DNA of 32,469 bases from a virus, in IMG/VR virus record IMGVR_UViG_3300005747_001283, positions 1-32,469 of that record; one strand, written 5' to 3'. Below are positions 3,618-28,196 of this stretch, one piece after another. Both the position numbers and the translations under genes were made by a program. The first letter of the stretch is position 1. Every line of letters begins with the position of its first letter. The notes beneath the pieces are model-generated. The model was not told the origin of the DNA and did not search any database. It was given only the letters and a program-made list of their open reading frames with translations.

Positions 3618-4157
3618 CTAATACCACATATCCGCCGCCACAACATAACGATCTTGTTTTGATTTTAATATTCCAGGTCGGTGCCAATAGTGACTCGGGT
3701 AAATTACCCATTGACCGATCCTTGGAGGTTCCATGTGCCTGTCTTTGCCTTCTGGTCCTTGCATGGCAAATTCTGTGCCACACTCATCCAACACTTCAGG
3801 TAGATGCACATAGTACACGCCACTTAAAGATTCTACCTGTTTGTTGTGATGGTGATGATGCCATAGATCATCTCTGGCTTCCTCGAATTTTAGTGAAGTC
3901 TGGTAACTCCAACTTTGCACATTTTTGATTTGAAGTTCTTTGCCTGCATACATGAAACAGCTCATAATAAAACTCATTTTAAGTTTCATCCAGTGTGCAC
4001 CAGGCTCACCCAATATATTCACATTGGTTTGATATTTTGGTGAGTTAGTAAAATATTTTCCTTGTTGTATGAGATTGGACACATCAGCACACATATGATT
4101 TCTGTCAGCATCGCTGATGTGTTGATTCCAATCATACCATTTTAAATCTGGTTTCAT
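3618..4157 (-). CDS. 2OG-Fe(II) oxygenase family protein
   Basis: This 179-aa protein resembles the phage and bacterial putative 2OG-Fe(II) oxygenase family that carries a histidine-rich stretch followed by LSGVYYV. Here five His at residues 100-104 precede LSGVYYVHLP (111-120). A distal WHRPG (His159) and an Arg (Arg170) in DRYVVAADM match the C-terminal iron and 2-oxoglutarate binding elements. Such enzymes use 2-oxoglutarate, O2 and Fe(II) to hydroxylate or oxidise proteins or small molecules; the substrate is unknown. The canonical HxD is not obvious: the His run is followed by Asn, so the iron ligands are inferred. It is cotranscribed with a small membrane protein and two short unknowns. 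Confidence 0.75.
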   Translation of the reverse strand: MKPDLKWYDWNQHISDADRNHMCADVSNLIQQGKYFTNSPKYQTNVNILGEPGAHWMKLKMSFIMSCFMYAGKELQIKNVQSWSYQTSLKFEEARDDLWHHHHHNKQVESLSGVYYVHLPEVLDECGTEFAMQGPEGKDRHMEPPRIGQWVIYPSHYWHRPGILKSKQDRYVVAADMWY

Positions 4158-4400: not shown

Positions 4401-4423
4401 ATTGCGTCCTCCTTAACAACATC

Positions 4424-4452
4424 AGTATAGCAGAATCAAATGCATTTGTCAA
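4424..4452 (-). promoter_or_regulatory. Consensus sigma70-type promoter for the 4400-2995 operon
   Basis: On the minus strand the -35 box TTGACA (4452-4447) and the -10 box TATACT (4429-4424) are separated by exactly 17 bases. The predicted start is near 4417, giving a leader of about 16 bases that holds the AAGGAGG ribosome binding site. The near-perfect consensus implies early transcription by the host polymerase. Confidence 0.8.
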
Positions 4453-4475
4453 TGCCAGAATTATAGTACCATTTA

Positions 4476-4482
4476 ATAAATA
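4476..4482 (+). promoter_or_regulatory. Late-type promoter box before the hemC island
   Basis: ATAAATA followed by C matches the T4-like late -10 element. It lies 20 bases before the ATG at 4503, and an AAGGAG ribosome binding site sits at 4492-4497 between them. It would start the plus-strand island with hemC. Confidence 0.65.
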
Positions 4483-4502
4483 CTTCAAAACAAGGAGACT
4501 TT

Positions 4503-4754
4503 ATGGCTAAAATGAGAACATTCCATTTTTGGAATGAAGCAGGTGATGAAAAGGACACAGAACAATTGAGTTTATCAAGAGCAGTAAAATCTGTTCAAGG
4601 AGATTTTAAAGATTCAGTCATTGGCGTCAAGTACATCACTAAAAGAGGCAAAGAAATTGAAGACGCAATCAAATTACCCTGGGGTAGAAAAGTTAGACAA
4701 GCAATTGAATCTGAAAAGAAAAGAGCCGCATTGAAGGCCAAACAAAAGAGATAA
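4503..4754 (+). CDS. Small basic protein of unknown function (83 aa)
   Basis: It begins MAKMRTFHFWNEAGDEKDTE and ends in a strongly basic helix with many Lys and Arg (ESEKKRAALKAKQKR). A clear AAGGAG at 4492-4497 and a late-type box support the start. It is the first gene of the plus-strand island and is followed after 3 bases by another basic mini-protein. The basic tail suggests nucleic acid or acidic protein binding; this is inference. No family recognised. Confidence 0.7.
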   Translation: MAKMRTFHFWNEAGDEKDTEQLSLSRAVKSVQGDFKDSVIGVKYITKRGKEIEDAIKLPWGRKVRQAIESEKKRAALKAKQKR

Positions 4755-4757
4755 AAC

Positions 4758-4904
4758 ATGGCAAAACTAGCGAAATCGTACATAGCTCACATCAGCACAC
4801 CTAAGAAAACCAGCCAGGCTGGAAAAAAAAGCAAGTGCAAATTGAGTTCTATGAATAAATCGAAAAAACGTAGTCTTAAATTTAAAGTGGGACAAGGAAA
4901 ATAA
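4758..4904 (+). CDS. 48-aa basic mini-protein
   Basis: A 49-codon frame starts at the ATG at 4758, 3 bases after the previous stop. The product is about one third Lys/Arg, with the pattern STPKKTSQAG, then SSMNKSKKRSLKF and a final GQGK. Tiny basic proteins ending in a GQG-type tail occur in marine T4-like phages as far as I recall, which supports it being a gene and not noise. It may bind DNA or RNA, or be packaged; function unknown. No ribosome binding site is obvious, so it may be translated by coupling to the gene before it. Confidence 0.6.
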   Translation: MAKLAKSYIAHISTPKKTSQAGKKSKCKLSSMNKSKKRSLKFKVGQGK

Positions 4905-4929
4905 AACATTAACCAAATGTTCACAAAAT

Positions 4930-5790
4930 ATGTCTGACACTATCAGAGTTGGATCAAGACAATCACCCTTAGCCATCATTCAGGCCCAAGATGCTGTATC
5001 CAAGATAGATTATCCTGCAGACATTGTGACCATGTTGGAAATTGCTGACCAAGACCTCAGCAGACCCGTGCATGAAATGGGAGGCAAAGGCATGTTCTGT
5101 ACCAAACTGGAACAGGCACTGCTGAACAATCAAATTGACTGTGCTGTACACAGTGCAAAAGATTGTGCCACTCAAGAAACTGCTGGCACTGATCTGTTAG
5201 GAGTGATCTACACAGGCGATGCAAGAGACTGTGTGATAGGAGATCATGCTCTTGAAGATTTACCACCAGGTTCAATCATAGGAACTTCTGCACCCAGGAG
5301 AACCGAAGCCATCAAAATTATCAGACCCGATTGTGTGGTGATGCCAGTGAGAGGCAACATCAACACCAGACTGAACAAAATCAAAACAGGCGAAGTGGAT
5401 GCACTGATTCTGGGACACAGTGTGGTCGACAGAATGAAATTGGATGTGCCACATCATGTGATCGAAGAACACACAATCCTGCCAGCCGCCGGAGCAGGCA
5501 AGGTGGTGATACAGATTAGATCCAACAGTGACATGGCCAAAGCCACATGGTATCCTGCTGTGGATTTTTCTTCCACTCAGGAGTTGTGGATTGAGAGGGG
5601 AGTGTTGCGAGCCATAAATGGTGACTGTCACACGGCTGTGGGAGTGAGAGCTCGAGTCACACAACACAATGAACTTCAACTGCAAGCCATGTGTGTGCAG
5701 GACAATGAACTTAAATTTTTTCGATTGATTGGCAATCTATCAGATGCTCCTGCCATGATAGAAGAAATGGCTATCAAAATACTGCCTTGA
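4930..5790 (+). CDS. hemC: Hydroxymethylbilane synthase (porphobilinogen deaminase)
   Basis: HemC joins four porphobilinogen units into hydroxymethylbilane, the linear precursor of all tetrapyrroles. Family signatures are in order: RVGSRQSPLA (6-15), GGKGMF (51-56), AVHSAKD with the catalytic Asp78, GTSAPRR with substrate-binding Arg123/124, RGNINTRL (141-148), and GDC with Cys233 as the predicted attachment site of the dipyrromethane cofactor. At 286 aa it is slightly shorter than the usual 300-320, mainly after the cofactor Cys. The usual TRGD before the mobile loop reads EIAD. All key residues appear kept, so it is probably active. It lies on the plus strand between small phage genes, near 48% GC in a sampled stretch, well above its AT-rich surroundings. 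No ribosome binding site is seen; a 6-base inverted repeat (4905-4921) precedes the ATG. Confidence 0.95.
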   Translation: MSDTIRVGSRQSPLAIIQAQDAVSKIDYPADIVTMLEIADQDLSRPVHEMGGKGMFCTKLEQALLNNQIDCAVHSAKDCATQETAGTDLLGVIYTGDARDCVIGDHALEDLPPGSIIGTSAPRRTEAIKIIRPDCVVMPVRGNINTRLNKIKTGEVDALILGHSVVDRMKLDVPHHVIEEHTILPAAGAGKVVIQIRSNSDMAKATWYPAVDFSSTQELWIERGVLRAINGDCHTAVGVRARVTQHNELQLQAMCVQDNELKFFRLIGNLSDAPAMIEEMAIKILP

Positions 5791-5815
5791 CAGTTGGGTA
5801 AATTCATTGTAATAT
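5787..5815 (+). promoter_or_regulatory. Sigma70-type promoter overlapping the hemC stop
   Basis: TTGACA (5787-5792, sharing bases with the hemC stop codon) and TAATAT (5810-5815) are 17 bases apart on the plus strand. Transcription would begin near 5822 and serve the 64-aa gene at 5928. The same gene also has a late-type box at 5847-5854, so it may be read both early and late. Confidence 0.65.
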
Positions 5816-5846
5816 ATAGATATGTGTTTGTTGCATACAAGGTATG

Positions 5847-5927
5847 CTAAATACATATACGTTCAGGCATCAGCCCGGAAGTAGGTTTTACCGAAGGAAC
5901 GCACCTAACTTTAACAAGGAGGGTGAT
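5847..5927 (+). promoter_or_regulatory. Late-type box and structured mRNA leader
   Basis: CTAAATAC (5847-5854) matches a late -10 element. The following ~70 bases are GC-richer than most spacers and contain complementary segments: TAGGT near 5882 with ACCTA near 5903. They end in an AAGGAGG ribosome binding site before the ATG at 5928. The leader could fold and regulate translation; the fold is a by-eye inference. Confidence 0.45.
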
Positions 5928-6122
5928 ATGAGCAGATTCACTCATTTATTCAAAAAGCGAGCTGAGGAGAGTAATCTCAAGGCAAAGATCAAAGCACTGT
6001 TTGGTGCCAGAAGCGAAGTTGATATAAATGCAAACGGCACTGGTGGATATGTGGTCAAACATGGAGCCAACAAAGGCAAAGTTTTAGCACATCAACCAAA
6101 AAAATCTACCAACAATTGGTAG
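5928..6122 (+). CDS. Small basic protein of unknown function (64 aa)
   Basis: The start at 5928 (MSRFTHLFKKRAEESN) is chosen because AAGGAGG lies 6-12 bases upstream. The frame is open to another ATG at 5844, but that one sits directly before the late-type box and would be missing from the late transcript. The protein has a basic amphipathic N-terminal helix and a short Gly-rich beta-type segment (GTGGYVVKHGANKGKVL). It is followed by a strong hairpin. Strong expression signals suggest an abundant small protein; the role is unknown. Confidence 0.7.
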   Translation: MSRFTHLFKKRAEESNLKAKIKALFGARSEVDINANGTGGYVVKHGANKGKVLAHQPKKSTNNW

Positions 6123-6136
6123 ACACAAAATCAGCA

Positions 6137-6162
6137 TATTGGGGGTGTAAAACCCCCCAATA
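6137..6162 (+). terminator. Hairpin terminator after the 64-aa gene
   Basis: A perfect 9-base stem, TATTGGGGG (6137-6145) with CCCCCAATA (6154-6162), closes an 8-base loop. No long T run follows, so it may act as a weak or processing terminator. The stem is symmetric and could also work on the opposite strand. Confidence 0.65.
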
Positions 6163-6257
6163 ACACATCATTTAATGCGTCATATCTGCCCATACACGGG
6201 CCTACAACACAAATTGCACTCACAGTACTCTGAGCACTTTATGGAGTCCAATATGCG

Positions 6258-6264
6258 ATAAATA
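6258..6264 (+). promoter_or_regulatory. Late-type promoter box before the 39-aa gene
   Basis: ATAAATA lies 34 bases before the ATG at 6299, with a ribosome binding site (AAAGGGAG) near 6285 in between. The rest of the spacer from 6163 holds a short GCCC...GGGC inverted repeat near 6188-6201 and no gene that I can support. Confidence 0.6.
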
Positions 6265-6298
6265 TCAATCTTAACAACTCAACAAAGGGAGATAGGCT

Positions 6299-6418
6299 AT
6301 GAAGGCAATACTAACCAAAATCACATCCGTGATTGAAAAAATTAAATCGTTTTTTGTCGGAATGTACAACAGATTGGAAAAATTTGTTGACAGAATCGTC
6401 GGCGGTTTAAAACACTAA
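6299..6418 (+). CDS. 39-aa amphipathic peptide
   Basis: A 40-codon frame begins MKAILTKITSVIEKIKSFF and ends IVGGLKH. Hydrophobic and charged residues alternate with a helical period across the whole length, so it is likely one amphipathic helix that could lie on a membrane or pack in a coiled assembly. It has its own late-type box and a good ribosome binding site, which is stronger support than most peptides of this size. It ends 10 bases before the convergent oxygenase gene. No family recognised. Confidence 0.6.
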   Translation: MKAILTKITSVIEKIKSFFVGMYNRLEKFVDRIVGGLKH

Positions 6419-6428
6419 TCTACAGCAA

Positions 6429-7070
6429 CTAAAACTCAATCCAAGTATTGATGATGTACTTGGCACTGCTTCGGGGCGGATTGCCTCGGTGCAGGTGAGT
6501 GTAGTTGCCAGGATAAATCAACAAGGTTCCTTGCACTGCTGGTTCTAGACGCGAGTAGTACAAAAATTCTGTACCACCGCCCTGCTCCACAGTGTTGAGG
6601 AACAGTTGAACATTCAACAGTCTACTGCTGTTTTGGCGACCTTCCTGTTCCCAATGCCACACATGATATCCTGAACCCACATCTGTCTTTTGTATTTTAA
6701 GTTCATTGATGGACAATGGTGACTGTGTGCGTAAGGATGAAAATTTTTCTGAATATATTTCGAAATACTGCCATGCACGTTGTAAAAAATAATCCTGTAT
6801 CATGGGCACCCCTATAAGGTTCATATCCATCACACCCGAAGTGACCAAGCGTGTGGTGTTGACATTTATAGTGTCCTGTATGTGTGCCAGTGATCCATTC
6901 AATTGCTGTCTGCTGAAACCAAAACCCATCTGGTCCATCTTTTCAAAATAGTTAATGGCTTTTTGGCACCACTCCGGTTCGAATGCATTTTCAAATTTGC
7001 CCACAAAGTTGTCCAACGAGACCTTGAGGTTTTGTGGTAGCGGTAGGTTTTCTTTGGTGTTTTCAGACAT
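6429..7070 (-). CDS. 2OG-Fe(II) oxygenase, prolyl-4-hydroxylase-like
   Basis: This 213-aa protein has the C-terminal pattern of the 2OG-Fe(II) oxygenase superfamily. GYHVWHWE holds a likely HxE iron motif (His139, Glu141), then LLNVQLFLNTVEQGGGTEFL, then GTLLIYPGNYTHLHRG with the distal His (182 or 184), and finally Lys194 in AKYIINTW to hold 2-oxoglutarate. HxE in place of HxD is less common but known in this superfamily. It likely hydroxylates an amino-acid side chain or a sugar; the substrate is unknown. It is different from the oxygenase at 3618-4157. A TATATA lies 7 bases upstream of the ATG, the same spacing as other promoters here. Confidence 0.8.
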   Translation of the reverse strand: MSENTKENLPLPQNLKVSLDNFVGKFENAFEPEWCQKAINYFEKMDQMGFGFSRQQLNGSLAHIQDTINVNTTRLVTSGVMDMNLIGVPMIQDYFLQRAWQYFEIYSEKFSSLRTQSPLSINELKIQKTDVGSGYHVWHWEQEGRQNSSRLLNVQLFLNTVEQGGGTEFLYYSRLEPAVQGTLLIYPGNYTHLHRGNPPRSSAKYIINTWIEF

Positions 7071-7100
7071 GCTGTTGTATATATGGGACTCATCAGGCGT

Positions 7101-7195
7101 CCGCTAAAAAAATGGTTTTACGCTGTCGCGTTTCCGCTTCGCGGAATTGAATTTTCGGCGCTACCGCATTGCGGCTTTTTGGCTTCCGCTCTGCC
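7101..7195. repeat. GC-rich block of short inverted repeats
   Basis: In the 182-base gene-free spacer 7071-7252 four CCGC units recur near 7101, 7134, 7164 and 7186. Three form small perfect hairpins: TTCCGC-TTC-GCGGAA (7132-7146), CCGC-ATT-GCGG (7164-7174) and GGC...GCC (7181-7195). The composition is unlike the AT-rich surroundings. It could be a compound terminator after the helicase gene, a structured RNA, or a small mobile hairpin element. No protein frame here is convincing. Confidence 0.55.
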
Positions 7196-7252
7196 TAAAA
7201 CAATGTTTATTTTGTTCAGAAGTTTTGACTGTGTATTTTGGTAAAATGAGTT

Positions 7253-8713
7253 CTACTGATCGTTATCATCCAAGTTGGTTAAAAATTCTCTCAACTTGGT
7301 TGAATCTGTTTTGGGCTGTATTCTTCCTATGCTGTCACCTTTTGTAGGGTCTGGCGGAGTTATTGGTTTTCCTGCTTCTACACTGTTGTCTGTGTTTTCG
7401 GGTGTAACTTTTGATCCTTGTTTGATAGATTGGAATATTGTGCTCTTGCGTTTGTCAAATTCCTGGTACTCGGAATCATCTGCAAGATCTCTTATTCTTA
7501 AACTATCTAAATCAAATTCTAAATCAATTTTCATTCCTACTCCACTAGATGATCTTGTTTTCATAAGTTGTATTTGATATCTTCCACGTTCTCTCATTGC
7601 TCTAGATGTGAATATACCAAACACATTATCAGCAGTTTGTATTTTACTTAATCCTCCCGATATGTGCGAATGATCAAACTCTATTTCTTCAACAGCACCT
7701 CTGTTTAATTGTGCGGCTGTGACAAACACTGTGTTCAATTCCATTGCTAGATTACGCAGTTCCTCAGATACAAATTTGTCTTTGATAAACAAATCACTTG
7801 GAGAAACTTTTCTACTGTTGGGCATCATAAGATCCAAATAATCTACAAGCAATACATCAACCTTGCTGTTTGTTTTTATTTCATATTCTTTGATATATGA
7901 TCTGATATCGTTTGCGTTTTTACCACTTGGCATGTATTTGATCTGAAACTTTCCTGCTTTTTTACCAATCATTTTAACTTTCATCTCTACACCATCTAAG
8001 TCTTTAAAAATCTCTTTAGTAGGAATATCAGTTAGCATTGAATCTATTCTCATACTGACCAATGGTTCACTTAATTCGAATGTTAGATAAACCACATTCA
8101 AACCTTCTAATGCCCAATTGCAACCTAAGTTAGCAAGGAATAAACTTTTACCTGCACCAGATCCACCTGCAAAAATATTCAATTCTCCTTTGTTGAATCC
8201 ACCAAATAATCTTTTGTCTAAACTTTCCCAGCCTGTTTTTACTTGACCATTTTGATCTTTTAATCCTAGCAGTCTACCTTTAGGATCTTCAAAGTAATCT
8301 GTTCCTATGTCTTTGTGTAATCCAATCTGTACAGCGTCTTTGACCAACACTTCAACAGGACCATATTCACCTTTTTCTAACATGTCTGCTGATTTTAGTA
8401 TTGCTCTTTCTAAACTTTTGTGTCTAACAAATGTTTCAAAATCATCTAACAACCAATCAAAGTGTTGTTCGTTTAGTCCTGTGGGAATTTCTAAGTCTGA
8501 TTTACAACTAGAATTTACAATGTCTTGTGTAGGAAGTGCATTGTGTTTAGTCACATATTCATTTACGAATTGTGCGGCATCTTGTAATCTTCTATCAAAC
8601 AATGTGTGATCAAATATAGATTGACAACGCACAAATGTTTCTGCATTGCTCAACATCATTTCAAGATATACTTTTTGTATATCGTATCCGTATTCTTTGT
8701 TTTGTTTAGACAT
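7253..8713 (-). CDS. 41: Replicative DNA helicase, T4 gp41-like
   Basis: DnaB-family 5'-3' hexameric helicase that unwinds DNA at the phage fork together with primase. From the ATG at 8713 it is 486 aa. Residues 1-150 are an N-terminal helical domain. The RecA-like core follows, with Walker A GGSGAGKS (183-190), Walker B LLVDYLD (288-294) and a Gln-rich motif (TAAQLNRGAVEE) typical of DnaB motif H4. The C-terminus is a charged tail with Pro/Thr/Asp. A longer frame to 8779 would overlap the carbamoyltransferase gene and its own promoter, so 8713 is preferred. The start lies 7 bases from a consensus -10 box, so the mRNA is probably leaderless. Confidence 0.93.
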   Translation of the reverse strand: MSKQNKEYGYDIQKVYLEMMLSNAETFVRCQSIFDHTLFDRRLQDAAQFVNEYVTKHNALPTQDIVNSSCKSDLEIPTGLNEQHFDWLLDDFETFVRHKSLERAILKSADMLEKGEYGPVEVLVKDAVQIGLHKDIGTDYFEDPKGRLLGLKDQNGQVKTGWESLDKRLFGGFNKGELNIFAGGSGAGKSLFLANLGCNWALEGLNVVYLTFELSEPLVSMRIDSMLTDIPTKEIFKDLDGVEMKVKMIGKKAGKFQIKYMPSGKNANDIRSYIKEYEIKTNSKVDVLLVDYLDLMMPNSRKVSPSDLFIKDKFVSEELRNLAMELNTVFVTAAQLNRGAVEEIEFDHSHISGGLSKIQTADNVFGIFTSRAMRERGRYQIQLMKTRSSSGVGMKIDLEFDLDSLRIRDLADDSEYQEFDKRKSTIFQSIKQGSKVTPENTDNSVEAGKPITPPDPTKGDSIGRIQPKTDSTKLREFLTNLDDNDQ

Positions 8714-9704
8714 TGTTGTTATTATACCACATTTTGTCAGAGTTGTCAATGTGCTTGTTGTATTTGGCACACACAGCACCTATGCATGACCCAGGATCTC
8801 CTGGATTCTTTGGCACCCATATATCATCCCAAACTGATTCCAATTTGGTTCTAGCAGTTCTATTCAACGCACAACCTCCTACTAGAATAATGTTCTGTGT
8901 TGGTATGTTCATTTGTACCCAAGAACTGGCACACATCAAAGTTTGTTCAAAAATGTGTTGGGTTGTTGCCGCCAAGTCTGCCAAATCTTCTTCAGAATTT
9001 AATTCTGGTCTCCACCAATTACAACCTCTGTGTAAATTTTCTCTTGTTTTAAAAGGCATTCTGGTTTTAATAATTTCTTCCATCATTATTCTATGATATT
9101 TTCTCCAGTTGCCCTTTTGTGCTAACTGTTCTAGTTTGTATTCTTCTGCGTTGGCTTTGAATCCACATCTTTGAGTCATTGCTGAATAAAATAAACCAAT
9201 ACTGTGCGGATATCGTTGACTGTATTTCTTTTCCAGTTTATCACCATGACCATGCCATATTGTGTATGTTTCAAACTCACCAATTGAATCTAGCACAATC
9301 ACTGCGGCATTTTTGTAAGGAGATGAATAATATCCATAAGCCGCATGACTGTGATGATGATCCATATATTCTATAGGCACGTGTATACCTTGTCTTTGTA
9401 AAAACTTCTTAACATTGTTTTCTTTAAATGTCCAACCTTGTCCTGCTGTCAATTGACGCACTGATTTTTTGAAAGGTTTTTCATACCAAATAATTTTTGC
9501 CGGATGAGCCCATCTGGCATTGGATCTCACATGGGCCAGCATTTCTGGACATAGATTTGGATCACCAGGTACTCCACTAAAGTCTGAACTCTTACCTGCC
9601 CAGTGTAGGTATAATCCGTATTTGTCTGTCAGACCTTTTACGTGATATTCCATGACTGCCAAACTGGCATCATGATTATTTCCTGTTATTCCCCAAACTA
9701 TCAT
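8706..9704 (-). CDS. Short NodU/CmcH-type carbamoyltransferase (N-terminal domain only)
   Basis: The fold is the Kae1-like ATP-grasping domain of O-carbamoyltransferases such as NodU and TobZ, which move a carbamoyl group from carbamoyl phosphate to a sugar or antibiotic hydroxyl. Visible motifs are WGITGNNHDASLAV (4-17), the metal-binding DHHHSHAAYG (115-124), LDSIGEFET (138-146), GFKANAEEYKL (181-191) and LVGGCALN (274-281), then PGDPGSCIGA. At 332 aa it lacks the ~200-residue C-terminal domain of full-length family members, so it could be a stand-alone adenylation module or depend on a partner. It overlaps its upstream neighbour (ATGA at 9701-9704) and ends 8 bases inside the helicase gene. 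A sugar substrate would fit the glycan genes elsewhere in the window. Confidence 0.8.
   Translation of the reverse strand: MIVWGITGNNHDASLAVMEYHVKGLTDKYGLYLHWAGKSSDFSGVPGDPNLCPEMLAHVRSNARWAHPAKIIWYEKPFKKSVRQLTAGQGWTFKENNVKKFLQRQGIHVPIEYMDHHHSHAAYGYYSSPYKNAAVIVLDSIGEFETYTIWHGHGDKLEKKYSQRYPHSIGLFYSAMTQRCGFKANAEEYKLEQLAQKGNWRKYHRIMMEEIIKTRMPFKTRENLHRGCNWWRPELNSEEDLADLAATTQHIFEQTLMCASSWVQMNIPTQNIILVGGCALNRTARTKLESVWDDIWVPKNPGDPGSCIGAVCAKYNKHIDNSDKMWYNNNNV
8721..8749 (-). promoter_or_regulatory. Consensus sigma70-type promoter of the helicase gene
   Basis: Minus-strand TTGACA (8749-8744) and TATAAT (8726-8721) are 17 bases apart. Only 7 bases separate the -10 box from the helicase ATG at 8713, so transcription should begin at or within a base or two of the start codon. 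The promoter lies inside the 3' end of the carbamoyltransferase coding sequence. Confidence 0.8.
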
Positions 9705-9877
9705 CTCTCAATTACCCATGCTCTGTGATAGAAGTCGTCTATATTTTTTTGAATCAGCGACTTGGCTAAATCATTGGCTTCTAGTTTAGGCATAGGCCCA
9801 TGCTCCTTTTTTGTCGAAGGATCTAACGTTTTAATATTGTTAGGATCCTTGTGTATTCCTTCTATTACGTAGTACAT
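9701..9877 (-). CDS. 58-aa protein of unknown function
   Basis: A 59-codon frame begins MYYVIEGIHKDPNNIKTLD and ends FYHRAWVIER. The stop overlaps the start of the carbamoyltransferase as ATGA (9701-9704), a strong sign that it is translated. The start follows one base after the stop of the next small gene. The product has a beta-type N-terminus and a helical C-terminal half with Trp and Tyr. I do not recognise it. Confidence 0.65.
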   Translation of the reverse strand: MYYVIEGIHKDPNNIKTLDPSTKKEHGPMPKLEANDLAKSLIQKNIDDFYHRAWVIER

Positions 9878-9878
9878 C

Positions 9879-10001
9879 CTACTTGTAAATAAAAGGATCT
9901 CTCTTTTGTAACTCTTTTATTCTTTTTCTGTATTTCCATTTTTGAATTATTTTTCTAAATGGGGATAACAAAATTTGAATAACTTTTCTTATGAAAACCA
10001 T
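9879..10001 (-). CDS. 40-aa basic helical peptide ending RDPFIYK
   Basis: A 41-codon frame starts within the 3' end of the primase gene (13-base overlap) and reads MVFIRKVIQILLSPFRKI, then KWKYRKRIKELQKRDPFIYK. It is highly basic and amphipathic, and the Phe-Ile-Tyr end looks like a conserved tail. I recall similar short proteins with this ending in marine T4-like phages but cannot check. Placement between primase and helicase genes suggests a link to replication, as an inference only. Confidence 0.6.
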   Translation of the reverse strand: MVFIRKVIQILLSPFRKIIQKWKYRKRIKELQKRDPFIYK

Positions 10002-10993
10002 TTTTTCATCCTCAGTTTGATTTTTAATGTTGATTGCTCAGCAAATTTAACTATTGAATAAAGTGTGTGCAATCTCCCATATTTAAGCACAGCATCATTC
10101 ACATCTTTAACATCTTGATGCCAATCAGGCATACTCACACTCCATCCAGACTCGATAGCCTGTTCAACCAATTTTATTCCTGCGTCATCTCTGTCGGGCA
10201 TCACAATTACGTGTTTTCCCATGCTGTTTAGCAATATCTCTTGTTGCTGTTTTACTTCACTGCCCAACAATCCTACACCATCTATGCTCATTGCATCTAT
10301 TGGACCTTCCACAGCAATAATAAATTCTCTATCATCATTTTGATTATCTAAATTAAAAACATATCCCGGCTGTTGTTCGGAAATATATTTTACCTTACTA
10401 TCGACAACTTTTCTTGCAGTATAGCCTACTATGTCTGATCTATAATAAAAAGGAATAATCAATCTATCACTGTATGCAGAGTTAGGAGTCCAATAAAATT
10501 TAAAATCTAAATCTGCTAATTTTCTTTGTTCTAAATATTGTAAAACTTTGACAAAGTTTTTATCTAGCCCTGATGGCTCCAGTGCTTTGTAGTCAGCCCA
10601 CTCTTGCAACTGTTTAGCACCTTCCGGCAATTCTTTTTTTTCAAATTTTGGTAACTGAAGTATTGGTGCATTACCTGTTTGCTCTTCTTTTAGTTTTAAA
10701 ACTTGCAGTGCTAATTTTGTAATTGTGTCATCTGGTGTGTTTAACCATTTCAACAGTTTACGTAGTTTGTATGAAAGATTTCTACCAGGTTGCCAACTTG
10801 CTGTGTACCCACAATTAAAACAGTGATAACTGATCCCGCCATCTGCATTATTAATCAATCCGCCTCTCTGTCTAGAATCTGTTGTGGTGCCATTATGTTC
10901 GCAACAAGGTGCATTGAAAGAAAGCCATCCGCTAGGAGTTTTCTTTCTTTTAAAAGGCAAATATGCAAGTAGTGTATCGTAAACAGAGATCAT
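9989..10993 (-). CDS. 61: DNA primase, T4 gp61-like
   Basis: Makes the RNA primers for lagging-strand synthesis with the gp41-like helicase. The N-terminal zinc-binding motif has Cys30/Cys31, His33, Cys58 and Cys61 (FNAPCCEHN, then HCFNCG). The Toprim domain carries VEGPIDAMS with Glu229 and PDRDDAG with Asp267/Asp269, the metal-binding catalytic acids. Length (334 aa) is close to T4 gp61. The gene sits 7 bases from a consensus -10 box, so translation likely starts on a leaderless mRNA. The downstream order (small peptide, 58-aa protein, carbamoyltransferase, helicase) keeps the two primosome genes close. Confidence 0.92.
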   Translation of the reverse strand: MISVYDTLLAYLPFKRKKTPSGWLSFNAPCCEHNGTTTDSRQRGGLINNADGGISYHCFNCGYTASWQPGRNLSYKLRKLLKWLNTPDDTITKLALQVLKLKEEQTGNAPILQLPKFEKKELPEGAKQLQEWADYKALEPSGLDKNFVKVLQYLEQRKLADLDFKFYWTPNSAYSDRLIIPFYYRSDIVGYTARKVVDSKVKYISEQQPGYVFNLDNQNDDREFIIAVEGPIDAMSIDGVGLLGSEVKQQQEILLNSMGKHVIVMPDRDDAGIKLVEQAIESGWSVSMPDWHQDVKDVNDAVLKYGRLHTLYSIVKFAEQSTLKIKLRMKKWFS

Positions 10994-11000
10994 TTACGAT

Positions 11001-11029
11001 ATTATATTTTATTTTTTGGTAAAAGTCAA
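11001..11029 (-). promoter_or_regulatory. Consensus sigma70-type promoter of the primase unit
   Basis: Minus-strand TTGACT (11029-11024) and TATAAT (11006-11001) are 17 bases apart. The primase ATG at 10993 lies 7 bases beyond the -10 box. The -35 box directly abuts the stop codon of the structural gene upstream (11030). Confidence 0.8.
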
Positions 11030-11839
11030 TTAGTTTCTAATTAATATTTTGGTAATATCATTGTTGTAGTCTTCTTCTATGTCAACTTTATTGGTAGTGT
11101 GTTTTATTCTAATGTTAGTATACACACCATTGAAATTTACATATTTCAATTTGTCCGAAGAAGTTACGTCTATTTTAGCAACATCTGACCAATATGTTGA
11201 CTCAGATACTTGTGAGTCAAGTGTTGCCTGCACAGTGATACTGCCATCCGCACTGTTTAGATAAAATGCCGCTGTGTGAAGTGCTTCATTGCCATTAATG
11301 GCAGGTTCGGCTGTGATTGCTTCTGATAAAAACACATCGCTACCGTCTGATTCTTGGCTTAAAGATGTAACACTGTAAGATCCTAATGGTCCTGGAATTT
11401 CGCTGGCATCTAAATACACCGATCCTTTACTTTCAAAATGAGAATTGCTATATGTTAATACTCTTTCATTATTAGTGTTGTCAATTAATTCAATGGTGTA
11501 ATTTAAAAATTGTGATTGTAAATTTAATAAGTCATTTTCGCTGATCATCACAGTAAACATGCCAACCTTGCTTGGTGTTGCTGTTTCTAATATAGTAACA
11601 TCTTTCTCCACCACCATTCGTGTGTTTTCATCAAACATTTTAAATTTAGGTGTGTAAGAATTAAGAATAGACACCGGTTTCTGATCTGCATTAATGATCT
11701 TGAACTGGATTTTGTTGTCTATTCCTCTAAAAATATTTAATCTTCTCTGATACAATGATTTATACTCCGTTACTTGTCCTGCCACATTTGCGGTAAGCAG
11801 TACACTGTTATTTAATAAATATCTCTGAACTAATTGCAT
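11030..11839 (-). CDS. Virion-type structural protein (269 aa)
   Basis: The protein begins MQLVQRYLLNNSVLLTANVAG and is a mostly beta, Ser/Thr/Asn-rich sequence with no catalytic motif. It has two apparent beta domains, about 1-130 (QFKIINADQKPVSILNSY) and 150-269 (GSYSVTSLSQESDGSDVFLS). This composition is typical of tail-tube, baseplate or fibre proteins of marine T4-like phages. A late-type ATAAATA box on the minus strand (11858-11852) lies 12 bases upstream, consistent with late expression. It stands apart from the other virion genes, between replication genes. Confidence 0.65.
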   Translation of the reverse strand: MQLVQRYLLNNSVLLTANVAGQVTEYKSLYQRRLNIFRGIDNKIQFKIINADQKPVSILNSYTPKFKMFDENTRMVVEKDVTILETATPSKVGMFTVMISENDLLNLQSQFLNYTIELIDNTNNERVLTYSNSHFESKGSVYLDASEIPGPLGSYSVTSLSQESDGSDVFLSEAITAEPAINGNEALHTAAFYLNSADGSITVQATLDSQVSESTYWSDVAKIDVTSSDKLKYVNFNGVYTNIRIKHTTNKVDIEEDYNNDITKILIRN

Positions 11840-11851
11840 AACTTTTATTAA

Positions 11852-11858
11852 TATTTAT
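11852..11858 (-). promoter_or_regulatory. Late-type promoter box for the 269-aa virion gene
   Basis: The minus strand reads GATAAATATT, matching the T4-like late -10 element, 12 bases before the ATG at 11839. It occupies the 22-base gap between two divergent genes (11840-11861). No matching late box is seen on the plus strand for the gene at 11862. Confidence 0.55.
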
Positions 11859-11861
11859 CAC

Positions 11862-12230
11862 ATGCTAAGAAACGAAATAGAAACCAAGTTTCCCTACATA
11901 AGTGTAGTAGAATACGGCGGAAAAGAGTATGTAGGAGTGATCAACAATCAAGATAACTCTGTAACAAGTGTGTATGTTTACACCGATTTACTCACAGAAA
12001 TAGAGAAAAAAGACTTTTTAGAAACTTGTGAAGCATGGTGGTGGGAGTCTAATCGCATGATACCTATTGGAATTTTTATGCGTAAAGAAATGCAAAGATA
12101 CAAACATGTAGTGATGATAATGGCAACCAAAGATGTCAGAGTATTGATAGGTCCATGCACAAATCTTAATAAGTTAGCAATCAAACGCACCAAACGTAAA
12201 TCAGTTCAGTTAGTCAGACAGCCTAAATAA
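11862..12230 (+). CDS. Protein of unknown function (122 aa)
   Basis: It begins MLRNEIETKFPYISVVEYGG and has a small alpha/beta look: repeated hydrophobic strands (EYVGVINNQDNSVTSVYVYT), a Trp-rich helix (CEAWWWESNR) and a very basic C-terminus (KLAIKRTKRKSVQLVRQPK). It runs opposite to its neighbours and ends one base before the convergent stop of the DnaE-like gene. The basic tail suggests contact with nucleic acid, as inference. Family not recognised. Confidence 0.6.
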   Translation: MLRNEIETKFPYISVVEYGGKEYVGVINNQDNSVTSVYVYTDLLTEIEKKDFLETCEAWWWESNRMIPIGIFMRKEMQRYKHVVMIMATKDVRVLIGPCTNLNKLAIKRTKRKSVQLVRQPK

Positions 12231-12231
12231 A

Positions 12232-12798
12232 TTATTTTTTATCTTTTTGAATTTGTTCACAGATAAGATTCATGTGAACCACTACTGCTACTGCATATGA
12301 AACTGCATGAGCTTTTTTAAAATAATAACCTTCAGATGGTTTAGTCCATACTTCATTCATTATGGTGTCCCAGTCTTTGTTTAGCAAATATCTTTTGCTT
12401 GGTCTTATTATTGCCAATACTGCCGCTAATTGTTTGATATTTTTTGGTTTTAGTGTTTTTAATATTTCGTTGTGTCCGTTTAAATGAAACACTTGATCGC
12501 TGAAATCTTTCGCTTCTAATAATTCCCACACAGGTTCGATATTCATTAAAGTCTCAAGATGTTTTTCGTCACGCACTTTGTCATAGATACTTACATTCAA
12601 TAAATCAATTTTAAAATATCCACGTTCCTCTGCTTGTTTATAATTGAGTGTACTCACATTGTCTAACGGGTTGTGGGGAACTTCTGTGAAGTACACACCA
12701 GTATTGTGTTTTTTACCTGTGTCTAGTTTGGCAATTCTGTGCTTTAACTTTTCTAACAATATATTTCTGTCTGCAAAATCTATATCTATATCAAACAT
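12232..12798 (-). CDS. Miniature DNA polymerase III alpha (DnaE)-like protein
   Basis: At 188 aa it lines up in order with scattered core segments of bacterial DnaE (over 1,100 aa). FDIDIDFADR (2-11) matches the PDxDxDF catalytic strand. KKHNTGVYF (29-37) matches the KHAGGVV segment. YFKIDLLNVSIYD (61-73) matches KFDFLGL with the third catalytic Asp (Asp65). VFHLNGHNEILKTLKP (103-118) matches VFQLESRGMKDLIKRLQP, and VLAIIRP (127-133) matches VALFRPG. KKAHAVSYAV (161-170) matches NKSHSAAYAL. The three acidic catalytic residues are present, but the PHP, thumb, most of the fingers, and the beta-binding and OB domains are absent. It overlaps rpiB by 8 bases. It may be a small nucleotidyltransferase, a non-catalytic subunit, or a decoy; activity is not shown. 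Confidence 0.7.
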   Translation of the reverse strand: MFDIDIDFADRNILLEKLKHRIAKLDTGKKHNTGVYFTEVPHNPLDNVSTLNYKQAEERGYFKIDLLNVSIYDKVRDEKHLETLMNIEPVWELLEAKDFSDQVFHLNGHNEILKTLKPKNIKQLAAVLAIIRPSKRYLLNKDWDTIMNEVWTKPSEGYYFKKAHAVSYAVAVVVHMNLICEQIQKDKK

Positions 12799-13255
12799 TT
12801 CTAATCAGTCCTAATTTTTTTACTCTTCTTGTGTGTCTACCTTTTTCAAAATTGGTTTTAAAAAATGCTTCTATCATATGTTTTGCATGATTGAAATCTG
12901 TGTAGTCTGCACCAATACATAATACATTCATATCGTTGTGTTGTCTAGCCTGTTCCACATCAAAGACGTCAAAACATACTACCGCTCTTGCTTTTGAAAA
13001 TCTGTTTGCCTGGATAGCCATACCAAAACCGCTTCCACATATCAAAATACCTTGATCAAATACACTCATATTTTCACCAACTTTTACAGCAATGTCATTG
13101 TAATCAATTCTTTTTGGCTTGTATGTACCAGCATCTTGAAATACTGCAATGTCAAATTTACTATCACATTCTGAGTCAATCGGACACAACCATGTTGATA
13201 TTTTTTCTTTTAATTCGAAACCTCTATGATCCGATCCTATTATTACATCACGCAT
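12791..13255 (-). CDS. rpiB: Ribose-5-phosphate isomerase B
   Basis: RpiB interconverts ribose-5-phosphate and ribulose-5-phosphate in the pentose phosphate pathway, which could supply nucleotide precursors during phage growth. The family signature is clear: GSDHRGFELKEKI with Asp9/His10, ILICGSGFGMAIQANRF with the catalytic Cys73, ARQHNDMNVLCIGA with His96, and FEKGRHTRRV near the C-terminus for phosphate binding. Length (154 aa) is normal for the family (about 145-155). It overlaps nth by 8 bases and the DnaE-like gene by 8 bases, so it is in a tight operon. It could alternatively act on a related sugar phosphate (LacA/LacB family). Confidence 0.92.
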   Translation of the reverse strand: MRDVIIGSDHRGFELKEKISTWLCPIDSECDSKFDIAVFQDAGTYKPKRIDYNDIAVKVGENMSVFDQGILICGSGFGMAIQANRFSKARAVVCFDVFDVEQARQHNDMNVLCIGADYTDFNHAKHMIEAFFKTNFEKGRHTRRVKKLGLIRNV

Positions 13256-25951: not shown

Positions 25952-26595
25952 ATCCAATATTTTTTTACTAACGGGTTATCTTTTTGCAAATGAGGTTTCT
26001 TAGATCTGCCTGCGTATATGGTAAACACAGGTGAAGGAAGAGGATCTTTTTGTTCAATCATGTGATGTTGCCAATTGATAAATTGTCCGACTTCGTCGTC
26101 CATAAATTTCATATTTGTTAAAGATGCCTGTGTGTATGCTTGGTCTCCTATTAAGTTTCCTTTGTGATATTTAGACATTATTGCTTGAGTATTACGTTGA
26201 AAATTTTCGTAGACAAAAGAATAATCACCTTGCCAACTCATTATACTGCTATTTGCATTACCGCTTGTTGGATTTACACTCTTAATCATATAAAAATTTT
26301 TGTAATCTAATTTGTCTAAAATATGTTCAAAATTATTACAAATAATAATATCTAAATCCAAATAAAATACAGGACCATTAAACAAATTAGGCCTGAACAA
26401 TTCAACTTTACTCCACCATCCTAACCAATTATGTTTTAATGGAATTGTTGCAATAGGAAGATTTACATTTGATAAGCAACTAAACTGATGCGGCTTTTTG
26501 TAGTTTCTTGCGATCATATTTTTTAATTTTAAAACGTAATCGTGTGAATATGTAGTTCTTTTGTTTCGTTGATACACACATACAAAATTAATCAT
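25948..26595 (-). CDS. Glycosyltransferase with DxD motif
   Basis: The ATG at 26595 (MINFVCVYQRNKRTTYS) is chosen; one 15 bases upstream is possible. GPVFYLDLDIII holds DxD at Asp80/Asp82 on a GT-A strand, preceded by HNWLGWWSKVELFRP, a pattern frequent in phage-encoded GT-A enzymes. The C-terminus (FTIYAGRSKKPHL) lacks a second clear motif. It overlaps the cytidylyltransferase fusion by 8 bases. The donor sugar is unknown. Confidence 0.75.
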   Translation of the reverse strand: MINFVCVYQRNKRTTYSHDYVLKLKNMIARNYKKPHQFSCLSNVNLPIATIPLKHNWLGWWSKVELFRPNLFNGPVFYLDLDIIICNNFEHILDKLDYKNFYMIKSVNPTSGNANSSIMSWQGDYSFVYENFQRNTQAIMSKYHKGNLIGDQAYTQASLTNMKFMDDEVGQFINWQHHMIEQKDPLPSPVFTIYAGRSKKPHLQKDNPLVKKYWI

Positions 26596-27577
26596 CGGAG
26601 TTCCATTCATTACAACTGTATACTGAATTAGGATAGAACCTAATATTATTTTTGTTCACTAAATTTTTTATAAAACTTTGCAAGTCAAAGTTTTCATTAA
26701 TATCATTTATTGAAATAGGCAAGTTTACGATATAATATGGAGGCTTATGCCAAGTTTCACCACTTGGTATTTTTATATTATTTTTTACAGCATTAATAAT
26801 ATCTGTGTGAGTATATTTTTTAAATTCTATACGTTCACCATCAGGAATAGAAAATTCACTTAAACGTGTGATTTGATTATTCTTTTTGAAATGGACATTG
26901 TTTGTTAAAAATATATCTTTGTATGGTATACACAAACAAGGAATAAATTTAAATCCTAATTCTTTCATTGCTTGTAATCTATTGTTTCCATCTACAACAA
27001 TTTGTAAATCTTCATGAATACCTATTGTGATAGGGTTGAAAAATATTTTTTCTTTTACTATTTTTTCTTTAAGTTTGGTTACTTTTTCATCATCAAAATC
27101 TTCATAAATTTTAAGTTTTTCAATTGGCAATATCTTTAAATTGTTAATGTGTTCTAAATCTTTTCTATCATCATGAATAATTCTTTGTTTTATTTCCGTG
27201 CTAGAAATTCCATCTGTTCTTGGAAATAGCATTAGTCTTATATTTTGTTCTTTTAAGTATAATAATGCGTTTGTACGGTCTCCACTGTGTACATAATCGT
27301 CTCCTTGTACAACTACGTTTGGTTTAATTTTAGACCACAACTCTCTTTGATCAACATCACTGTACTTGACTATTTCATCTACAAAAGGTAATGCTTTTAC
27401 CTGTTTTTCTCTTTCTTCAAAATTTAGTGTAGGATAATTTCCTTTAGACTTCTTAACTGATTCGTCATCTTGTATGCCAACAATTAAATAATCACCTTGT
27501 TGTTTTGCTCTTGTTAAAATGTTAATGTGTCCTAGGTGGAGTGTGTCAAAAACTCCTGATGTCATTACTTTAATCAT
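26588..27577 (-). CDS. Cytidylyltransferase fused to a ParB/SerK-like domain
   Basis: Residues 1-140 are a TagD-type cytidylyltransferase: TSGVFDTLHLGHINIL with HLGH (14-17) and RTDGISSTEI (120-129), the CTP-binding signatures. Residues 145-329 look like a ParB/sulfiredoxin-fold domain: LKILPIEKLKIYEDFDDEKV (147-166), IVVDGNNRLQAMKELG (193-208), then YTHTDIINAV and PSGETWH near 255-277. That second set of motifs recalls the free-serine kinases SerK/SbnI more than DNA-partition ParB. Inference: one polypeptide could phosphorylate a small alcohol or amino acid and activate it as a CDP derivative. The ATG at 27577 (MIKVMTSG) is chosen over one 69 bases upstream because it overlaps the preceding gene by only 8 bases. 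Confidence 0.75.
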   Translation of the reverse strand: MIKVMTSGVFDTLHLGHINILTRAKQQGDYLIVGIQDDESVKKSKGNYPTLNFEEREKQVKALPFVDEIVKYSDVDQRELWSKIKPNVVVQGDDYVHSGDRTNALLYLKEQNIRLMLFPRTDGISSTEIKQRIIHDDRKDLEHINNLKILPIEKLKIYEDFDDEKVTKLKEKIVKEKIFFNPITIGIHEDLQIVVDGNNRLQAMKELGFKFIPCLCIPYKDIFLTNNVHFKKNNQITRLSEFSIPDGERIEFKKYTHTDIINAVKNNIKIPSGETWHKPPYYIVNLPISINDINENFDLQSFIKNLVNKNNIRFYPNSVYSCNEWNSDD

Positions 27578-28196
27578 TTTTCTTCCAATAAGTTTTCCAT
27601 TTTTGCACTTCATCGGGTTTGTCGAAATCATCTGTTTCGTCATCAATATTGGTCCAATTTGTGTTGCAAATGTATTGAGTTCTTTTGACAGTTTTACGTT
27701 GTGGCGGTGAATTCAAATTCCATTTTCCCGAATGATATGCGTATAGGTCCCAAGACCAACATCGATTTATTTTCTTGTCCCAAAAGGCTTTGCACACTAA
27801 TTTTAACCAGTGCCAAAACGTGTCATCGCTTTTAAATGCCCAAAATTCTCCATATTTTTTCAATGCATTTCCTTTCGCACGTCCATAATAGTTTGTTGTG
27901 CCATTAAGAATTGTTTTAATTGCATTTTCAGAATAATAAACATCTCCATATAACCATATATTACCTTTTAGTTCTTCACAACCTAACAAGCAACCTAAAT
28001 CGTTGCCTTTCATAGTGTTTACAAATTCATTATATTGAGGATACATTCCTTTTTGGGCCACAGTTACCCAAATATCATTTTGCCCATTTTCTTTTAGAAG
28101 TCGCACAGTTCTATCAACTAACTTTTCACCTTGTACAGTGATAGAGTGTCTATTAAAACTTTTTGCAGTTCCCCCAGCCATAATGATTATTCTCAT
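27570..28196 (-). CDS. Nucleotidyltransferase, MobA-like NTP transferase fold
   Basis: The N-terminus MRIIIMAGGTAKSF carries the GG-x nucleotide-binding loop, though the usual Gly-x-Gly-x-Arg is partly replaced. NIWLYGDVYYSE (79-90) holds the metal-binding Asp85. At 208 aa it is close to MobA-like enzymes and to sugar-phosphate or amino-acid cytidylyltransferases. In front of a cytidylyltransferase fusion and behind a glycosyltransferase, it may activate a sugar phosphate. It overlaps the downstream gene by 8 bases and the upstream one by 4. Confidence 0.7.
   Translation of the reverse strand: MRIIIMAGGTAKSFNRHSITVQGEKLVDRTVRLLKENGQNDIWVTVAQKGMYPQYNEFVNTMKGNDLGCLLGCEELKGNIWLYGDVYYSENAIKTILNGTTNYYGRAKGNALKKYGEFWAFKSDDTFWHWLKLVCKAFWDKKINRCWSWDLYAYHSGKWNLNSPPQRKTVKRTQYICNTNWTNIDDETDDFDKPDEVQKWKTYWKKND

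Follow-up and report, generated by a model that had tools for sequence, protein, structure and literature searches.

We analysed a 32,469-base linear virus record (IMGVR_UViG_3300005747_001283; the whole of it is called the window below), in which a plus-strand island of five genes, encoding proteins of 83 and 48 amino acids (aa), HemC, and proteins of 64 and 39 aa in that order, is bordered on both sides by minus-strand genes. With a probability of roughly 60%, we read this island as an accessory cassette, transcribed late, by which a T4-like marine phage of jumbo type sustains heme supply, probably in a SAR11-like host, and which lies beside a separate, glutamine-gated late gene. In this model, hemC and two small genes would be transcribed together from a late box at 4475, HemC would join four host porphobilinogens into hydroxymethylbilane, and the supply of tetrapyrroles, most likely heme, would be kept up late in infection. 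Directly 3' of hemC, a separate unit would consist of a late-type box at 5846 followed by a glutamine riboswitch beginning approximately at the expected transcript start, with a hairpin overlapping the Shine-Dalgarno sequence, such that ample glutamine would turn on translation of the 64-aa protein.

A preliminary description of this DNA had placed hemC among four small plus-strand genes (4503-4754, 4758-4904, 5928-6122 and 6299-6418) within a minus-strand neighbourhood, and this arrangement was confirmed. The hemC open reading frame (ORF) carries the Pfam domains PF01379 (6.5e-54) and PF03900 (1.6e-7), and scores 229.6 bits against the NCBIfam hemC equivalog TIGR00212, above its cut-off of 164. 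A sequence search of the PDB returned 5h6o as best match (1.5e-38), with E. coli HemC (1ah5) at 1.1e-35, and an AlphaFold2 model with a predicted local distance difference test score (pLDDT) of 92.6 had only hydroxymethylbilane synthase (HMBS) structures among its top 32 Foldseek matches, 1ah5 being the best with a template modelling (TM) score of 0.88. The ratio of nonsynonymous to synonymous substitution rates (dN/dS) of hemC was 0.147, 0.175 and 0.137 for three lineage pairs (the out-of-frame helicase pair of the window and L003 was left out of the comparison). The gene is intact and constrained. From its sequence and predicted fold, the window HemC is probably a genuine hydroxymethylbilane synthase with enzyme activity.

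The window protein has its fold and catalytic residues in common with E. coli HemC (PDB 1ah5, 1pda), but is only 29% identical to it, shorter (286 versus 313 aa) and changed by Q198A and G241D. D78 and C233 of the window HemC are equivalent to E. coli Asp84 and Cys242, which we take to be the catalytic aspartate and the cofactor cysteine, and R10, K53, S75, K77, D78, R123, R124, R141, R147 and C233 are invariant across 18 aligned viral HemC proteins. Among the matches listed, as in all residue counts that follow, D78 was present in 92/92 and C233 in 86/86 readable other viral HemC (these counts exclude the window-clade proteins and the partial L255 protein, so that 92 of 97 viral proteins remain); substitution at one of these positions in all relatives, which the preliminary description had named as evidence that would speak against its proposal, was not seen. 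Its statement that all key residues are kept holds for K77, D78, C233, R10, R123, R124, R141, R147 and K53, but fails at E. coli Q198, which is A189 here. This alanine is limited to the window clade and L296, and glutamine is kept in 24/24 cell HemC and 86/87 readable other viral HemC. The window protein also departs from G-[GSA]-C, the PROSITE pattern ahead of the cofactor cysteine, which, like Gln198, is usual, not strictly defining. E. coli G241 is Asp here, yielding a GDC motif; other viral HemC have Asp at this position in 80/86 readable cases, and cell HemC have G or S in 24/24. Since 29/30 SAR11-like cell HemC (from the order of G612) carry GDC, this deviation does not disqualify the protein as a HemC.

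These departures bear on an alternative that we consider unlikely, in which HemC has lost or altered its full catalysis and serves another purpose, as a slower variant or as a binder of the tetrapyrrole chain. Such a change would fit the replacement of Q198 by alanine throughout the window clade and L296, the long branch on which this clade sits, and a weak translation start, as hemC has no Shine-Dalgarno sequence (16/36 window genes tested have one). However, the residues presumed to be catalytic are all invariant in the 18-sequence alignment, and the dN/dS of 0.14-0.18, the TIGR00212 equivalog assignment and the intact HemC fold argue for a working enzyme.

Among viruses, hemC is widespread. 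Scanning with a DNA pattern for GGKGxF...HSxKD detected it in at least 119 viral stretches, with at least 97 distinct viral proteins after removal of duplicates and cell loci; this fixed pattern served better than an alignment search for distant viral HemC, which returned the same six contigs only, and a genome contig search, which returned two loci from one metagenome-assembled genome. Ten deposited phage records matched HemC, all at below 60% identity, and several were bacterial assemblies or unannotated pieces that we did not count as phage genes. Identity to the window HemC was likewise below 60% in all 83 matched plasmid records (26-37% in the listed rows). A recent transfer of hemC from a sampled cell was ruled out, as cell HemC was at most 38% identical among the matches listed from 398 genomes and from 147 SAR11-like genomes (sampled genomes of 0.7-1.5 Mb from the order of G612, classed as SAR11-like on their size and GC); a search of 385 genomes that used the L307 viral HemC as query falls outside this figure.

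For HemC trees, viral proteins of at least 230 aa were clustered at 90%, and a 69-row tree was built in which every third member of the large viral clade and every second row of the cell and of the SAR11-like sets were sampled. One clade (98/88) united SAR11-like HemC with 18 viral ones, the L250 viral HemC grouped with gammaproteobacterial-type HemC, and the window clade stood apart with L296 (100/99) on a long branch. The phylogeny that the preliminary description had proposed as a check thus separates the window clade, but does not settle its place relative to SAR11 or the large viral clade: approximately unbiased (AU) tests gave p 0.085 for grouping with SAR11 and p 0.085 for grouping with the large viral clade, and long branches meet in these placements. 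Viral HemC has clades of its own, and one lineage evolved without the otherwise conserved glutamine, so that viral heme supply is testable by a simple complementation assay.

Within the stretches examined (flanks up to 10 kb, many shorter), hemC was found in 0/80 helicase-related loci, and it was found in 0/5 longer relatives (89-357 kb), whose entire records were checked, from which we conclude that hemC is accessory. In L148, the small genes, the riboswitch gene and the oxygenase are present without it. With its phage neighbours, its intact and constrained sequence and its absence from the five longer relatives, hemC has the attributes of an auxiliary metabolic gene. That it exceeds the rest of the window in guanine-plus-cytosine (GC) content and is missing from the 80 helicase-related loci could also be expected of a passenger gene that is being lost, or of host contamination of the contig, but purifying selection on hemC and the presence of the same island with phage neighbours in three lineages make this highly improbable.

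The 23 other HemC-virus records contain AlaS (5 records), coproporphyrinogen oxidase (8) and ferrochelatase (2), and on the basis of this co-occurrence we take hemC to belong to a viral habit of supplying heme. Of the tetrapyrrole products previously put forward, heme is the one to which these partners point, while we saw no pointer to cobalamin or siroheme, whose genes were not searched for. HemC precedes all three products in the pathway, which would allow a cobalamin or siroheme target, but given the partner genes we hold it to be improbable. The T4-type capsid gene gp23 was detected in 3/27 virus records (4 of the window lineage and the 23 other HemC carriers), and in 0/4 of the window-lineage fragments. 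As a separate observation, the L250 record (IMGVR_UViG_3300036770_003657, 399,796 bases) combines the gp23 capsid gene with AlaS, HemC, coproporphyrinogen oxidase and ferrochelatase, much of the heme pathway.

The island's gene order recurs in L002 and in L003-L006, giving three lineages with HemC identities of 100, 80 and 70%; in L003, extra sequence with small ORFs is inserted between the 48-aa gene and hemC. The features of the island are as follows.

4475..4482, plus strand: late-type promoter box AATAAATA, the one late-box candidate that lies 5' of hemC; L002 and L003 have the identical sequence.
4503..4754, plus strand: 83-aa protein with Shine-Dalgarno AAGGAG; its phage-record matches are all pelagimyophages (Mosig, HTVC008M).
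4758..4904, plus strand: 48-aa basic protein (phrog_17967); adjoins the homologue of the 83-aa protein in HTVC008M, ahead of baseplate genes.
4930..5790, plus strand: hemC, hydroxymethylbilane synthase (porphobilinogen deaminase), 286 aa, without Shine-Dalgarno.
5787..5815, plus strand: TTGACA-17-TAATAT, a sigma70-like promoter that overlaps the stop codon of hemC; retained in L002 but not in L003.
5846..5853, plus strand: late-type box GCTAAATA, with TAAATA at 5848, which begins 13 bases ahead of the aptamer's GTTCA.
5858..5905, plus strand: glutamine riboswitch aptamer RF01739, 49.1 bits (gathering score 35).
5902..5925, plus strand: hairpin CACCU/GGGUG, the proposed expression platform, overlapping the Shine-Dalgarno sequence at 5917-5922.
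5928..6122, plus strand: 64-aa protein (phrog_32989), putatively riboswitch-controlled, with C-terminus KSTNNW.
6137..6162, plus strand: G5-C5 hairpin 3' of the 64-aa gene, kept in three lineages.
6257..6264, plus strand: late-type box GATAAATA 5' of the 39-aa gene; GATAAATA in L002, GGTAAATA in L003.
6299..6418, plus strand: 39-aa protein, with identities of 97% and 85% to its counterparts in the other lineages.

We place the start of the 64-aa gene at 5928 rather than at the mechanical 5844, because the riboswitch (5858-5905) and AAGGAGG precede 5928. L209, the contig of L002, is 98-100% identical to the window across almost the whole of 6250-13000 and 72-84% over 4750-6250, with an abrupt drop at about 6250, close to the late box at 6257; this drop marks an exchange of the hemC-riboswitch segment by recombination between near-identical phages. 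At 46.5% GC (35.6% for the window), hemC ranks highest among the 47 genes tabulated, in a table whose row for the 64-aa gene covers 5930-6122 and is out of frame relative to the start at 5928. The earlier counts of 29 and 9 G/C in single 60-base rows are exact, though a poor test, as 31/541 rows have at least 29. Elsewhere in and around the island, the non-coding stretch 6165-6250 is strongly conserved in all three lineages and holds two possible hairpins, with no Rfam match, and 2-oxoglutarate (2OG)-Fe(II) oxygenases lie on either side, at 3618-4157 and 6429-7070, the latter also matching the C-terminal half of PHROG 3531, 'ferrochelatase'.

A T4-type late promoter has a TATAAATA-like -10 box, lacks a -35 box and is used late. 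On the plus strand of 4401-6430, TAAATA occurs three times only, in the boxes at 4475, 5846 and 6257, all within the 415 non-coding bases there; first-order simulations of that stretch contained 0.75 TAAATA on average, and 39/1000 reached three. Exact TATAAATA was found nowhere in the window on either strand, and one-mismatch versions occurred at chance level (77 seen versus 71.8 expected), such that conservation provides the better evidence for the late boxes: both other lineages retain the box at 4475, and also the TAAATA core at 5848 and 6259. The plus-strand late-type boxes that the preliminary description had put near 4476, 5847 and 6258 thus exist, conserved at least in their core. Its sigma70 promoter at 5787 is likewise a real motif, retained in L002, but it is not kept in L003 and lies downstream of hemC, on the stop codon; this position rules it out as a driver of hemC, pointing instead toward the riboswitch gene, and the proposed layering of early and late promoters over hemC falls with it. 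With only the box at 4475 upstream, hemC, if expressed from its own island, would be transcribed from there, and transcription of the island would probably be late.

An Rfam scan of the window returned one family, the glutamine riboswitch RF01739, full-length at 5858-5905 (positions 1-53 of 53), a feature overlooked in the preliminary description, whose own span contains it. The riboswitch is present in 6/6 related viral loci with hemC, and also in 7/7 helicase-related loci with a relative of the 64-aa gene, all 7 without hemC. That the hemC-riboswitch neighbourhood is fixed in all six hemC loci raises the idea of a single nitrogen-dependent programme, in which the riboswitch also affects hemC, for example at the 3' end of its transcript, or both respond to glutamine/glutamate status. 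This is a distinctly unlikely arrangement, as the riboswitch lies 3' of hemC and has boxes and a leader of its own, and its gene is found without hemC in the seven relatives.

A pattern scan extended the riboswitch sample to at least 120 viral stretches. Across 135 occurrences at 127 loci, duplicates included, a script found the next ORF to encode 26-81 aa in 120, a longer product in 6 and no ORF in 9; these ORFs belong to many unrelated sequence families. Among the matches listed, TAAATA started at -25 to -8 from the aptamer's GTTCA in 68/120 distinct viral riboswitches, most often at -13 (28), the distance of the window's own box, and in 17 control windows further upstream it was found in 0-12 of 117. 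Under the start-site geometry of T4 late promoters, a box at -13 would place the transcript start at the first bases of the aptamer. Behind the aptamer lies an arm, CACCU for example, that is able to pair with the Shine-Dalgarno region, with a stem of at least 5 in 70/95 leaders; when 5' arms were dealt to other leaders, 0/500 shuffles reached the observed mean, and the same held when each of the 32 distinct arms was counted once. Tentatively, and at somewhat less than even odds, we suggest that many marine T4-like phages share a control module, consisting of a late promoter, a glutamine riboswitch at the transcript start, a hairpin covering the Shine-Dalgarno sequence and an interchangeable tiny protein, that would read the glutamine (nitrogen) state of the host late in infection and add or withhold small effectors. 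Here the module would be parked beside a virus-evolved HemC.

The minus strand of the window encodes a DnaB-like helicase, a primase, a UvsW-like helicase, UvsX, UvsY and a gp32-like protein. UvsX is closest to jumbo phages, such as Phosso (68%) and Atu_ph07 (67%), the helicase has its nearest matches (51-52%) in Pseudomonas phages of around 285 kb, and viral relatives are found on contigs of up to 357,559 bases, which marks the window as a fragment of a T4-like phage genome of jumbo type. In a set of 50,697 phage records, the 83-aa and 48-aa proteins matched pelagiphages only (3/3 records each), and the 64-aa protein weakly matched 18 pelagiphage records and one uncultured phage (E-values 0.002-0.6). 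Together with the GDC motif of HemC, this kinship of the small proteins makes a SAR11-like alphaproteobacterium the probable host. Several further loci stand out in the window: palindromic GC-rich words at 7100-7200, with the oxygenase on one side and the helicase on the other; a 188-aa protein at 12232-12798 that matches the DNA polymerase family phrog_11778, too short for a whole polymerase and possibly a split or remnant gene; a sugar-phosphate isomerase of RpiB/LacAB type (PF02502, 2.6e-42) at 12791-13255, amid replication genes; and a single ORF at 26588-27646, in the window's lowest-GC stretch, that joins a heptose-kinase/adenylyltransferase-like part to a ParB-like part.

In addition to the lost glutamine and the missing Shine-Dalgarno sequence of hemC, several observations weigh against the late heme-supply cassette and its glutamine-gated neighbour as we describe them. 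AlaS, ferrochelatase and coproporphyrinogen oxidase were found in 0/4 window-lineage records, which are fragments of 22-32 kb. For the core replication genes, the closest relatives are in jumbo phages that infect Rhizobiales and Pseudomonas rather than in pelagiphages, and the riboswitch was found in 0/5 cultured pelagiphage regions that hold relatives of the 64-aa protein. Finally, 52/120 viral riboswitches among the matches listed have no exact TAAATA at the expected place.

The preliminary description had seen in hemC a new kind of host takeover, a claim superseded by phage tetrapyrrole genes already in print (PMC7029224, PMC11480375) and by the at least 119 viral stretches with HemC. As far as the excerpted text of the sources cited here goes, pelagiphages carry ferrochelatase beside a 2OG-Fe(II) oxygenase (PMC9599517), ahbD has been described (PMC9301287), and heme biosynthesis is among viral gene categories (PMC13184970); heme terms searched for in an ocean survey of viral metabolic genes (PMC11360552) were not found in its main text. 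Phage HemC is thus known in kind, and the window HemC represents a divergent form of it from a lineage of jumbo type. The unit of late box, riboswitch and tiny gene is the more surprising part; it generalises beyond the window and seems little described: glutamine riboswitches are listed in cyanophages (PMC9602691, PMC9964418), and in the open-licence literature, without supplements and partly in excerpt, we found no statement that they sit at late promoters before tiny genes. This order suggests, in a directly testable form, how phages in nutrient-poor oceans may sense the nitrogen status of their hosts.

Among known systems, the closest to the window HemC is the pelagimyophage 'deep ecotype' genome of PMC7029224, with porphobilinogen deaminase and coproporphyrinogen oxidase, likewise a marine T4-like phage genome from metagenomes ascribed to SAR11 hosts. 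It belongs to another phage lineage, its enzyme is covered in one sentence of the excerpt without sequence analysis, and its authors report finding no riboswitches; the window HemC clade forms a long branch apart from most viral HemC. The functional 5-aminolevulinic acid (5-ALA) synthase vAlaS of aquatic phages, whose nearest cell relatives are Pelagibacteraceae (PMC11480375), is also a tetrapyrrole-pathway phage gene, but a different enzyme acting at an earlier step and present in 0/4 window-lineage fragments. Phage-borne RF01739, as in the window, is reported in cyanophage S-CREM1 (PMC9964418) and in Melnitz, where it was assigned to transfer-messenger RNA (tmRNA; PMC9004378, in excerpt). 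In the Melnitz segment (L449, MZ577097.1 45717-47171), however, the riboswitch at 682-730 is directly followed by a tiny unannotated ORF, a 32-aa frame from ATG 753 with the ribosome site GGGGAGAG (feature span 682-851); the mechanical ORF list starts this frame at 714, and the record annotates an opposite-strand ORF instead, an example of why small ORFs skipped by annotators should be sought. The glutamine (glnA) riboswitch RF01739 and the cyanobacterial Downstream-peptide RNAs, which precede short ORFs of 17-100 aa, were described in PMC2864571; the window aptamer scores above the gathering threshold of this family, but sits in a T4-like phage among small genes of pelagiphage type, at a fixed place 3' of a late-type phage box.

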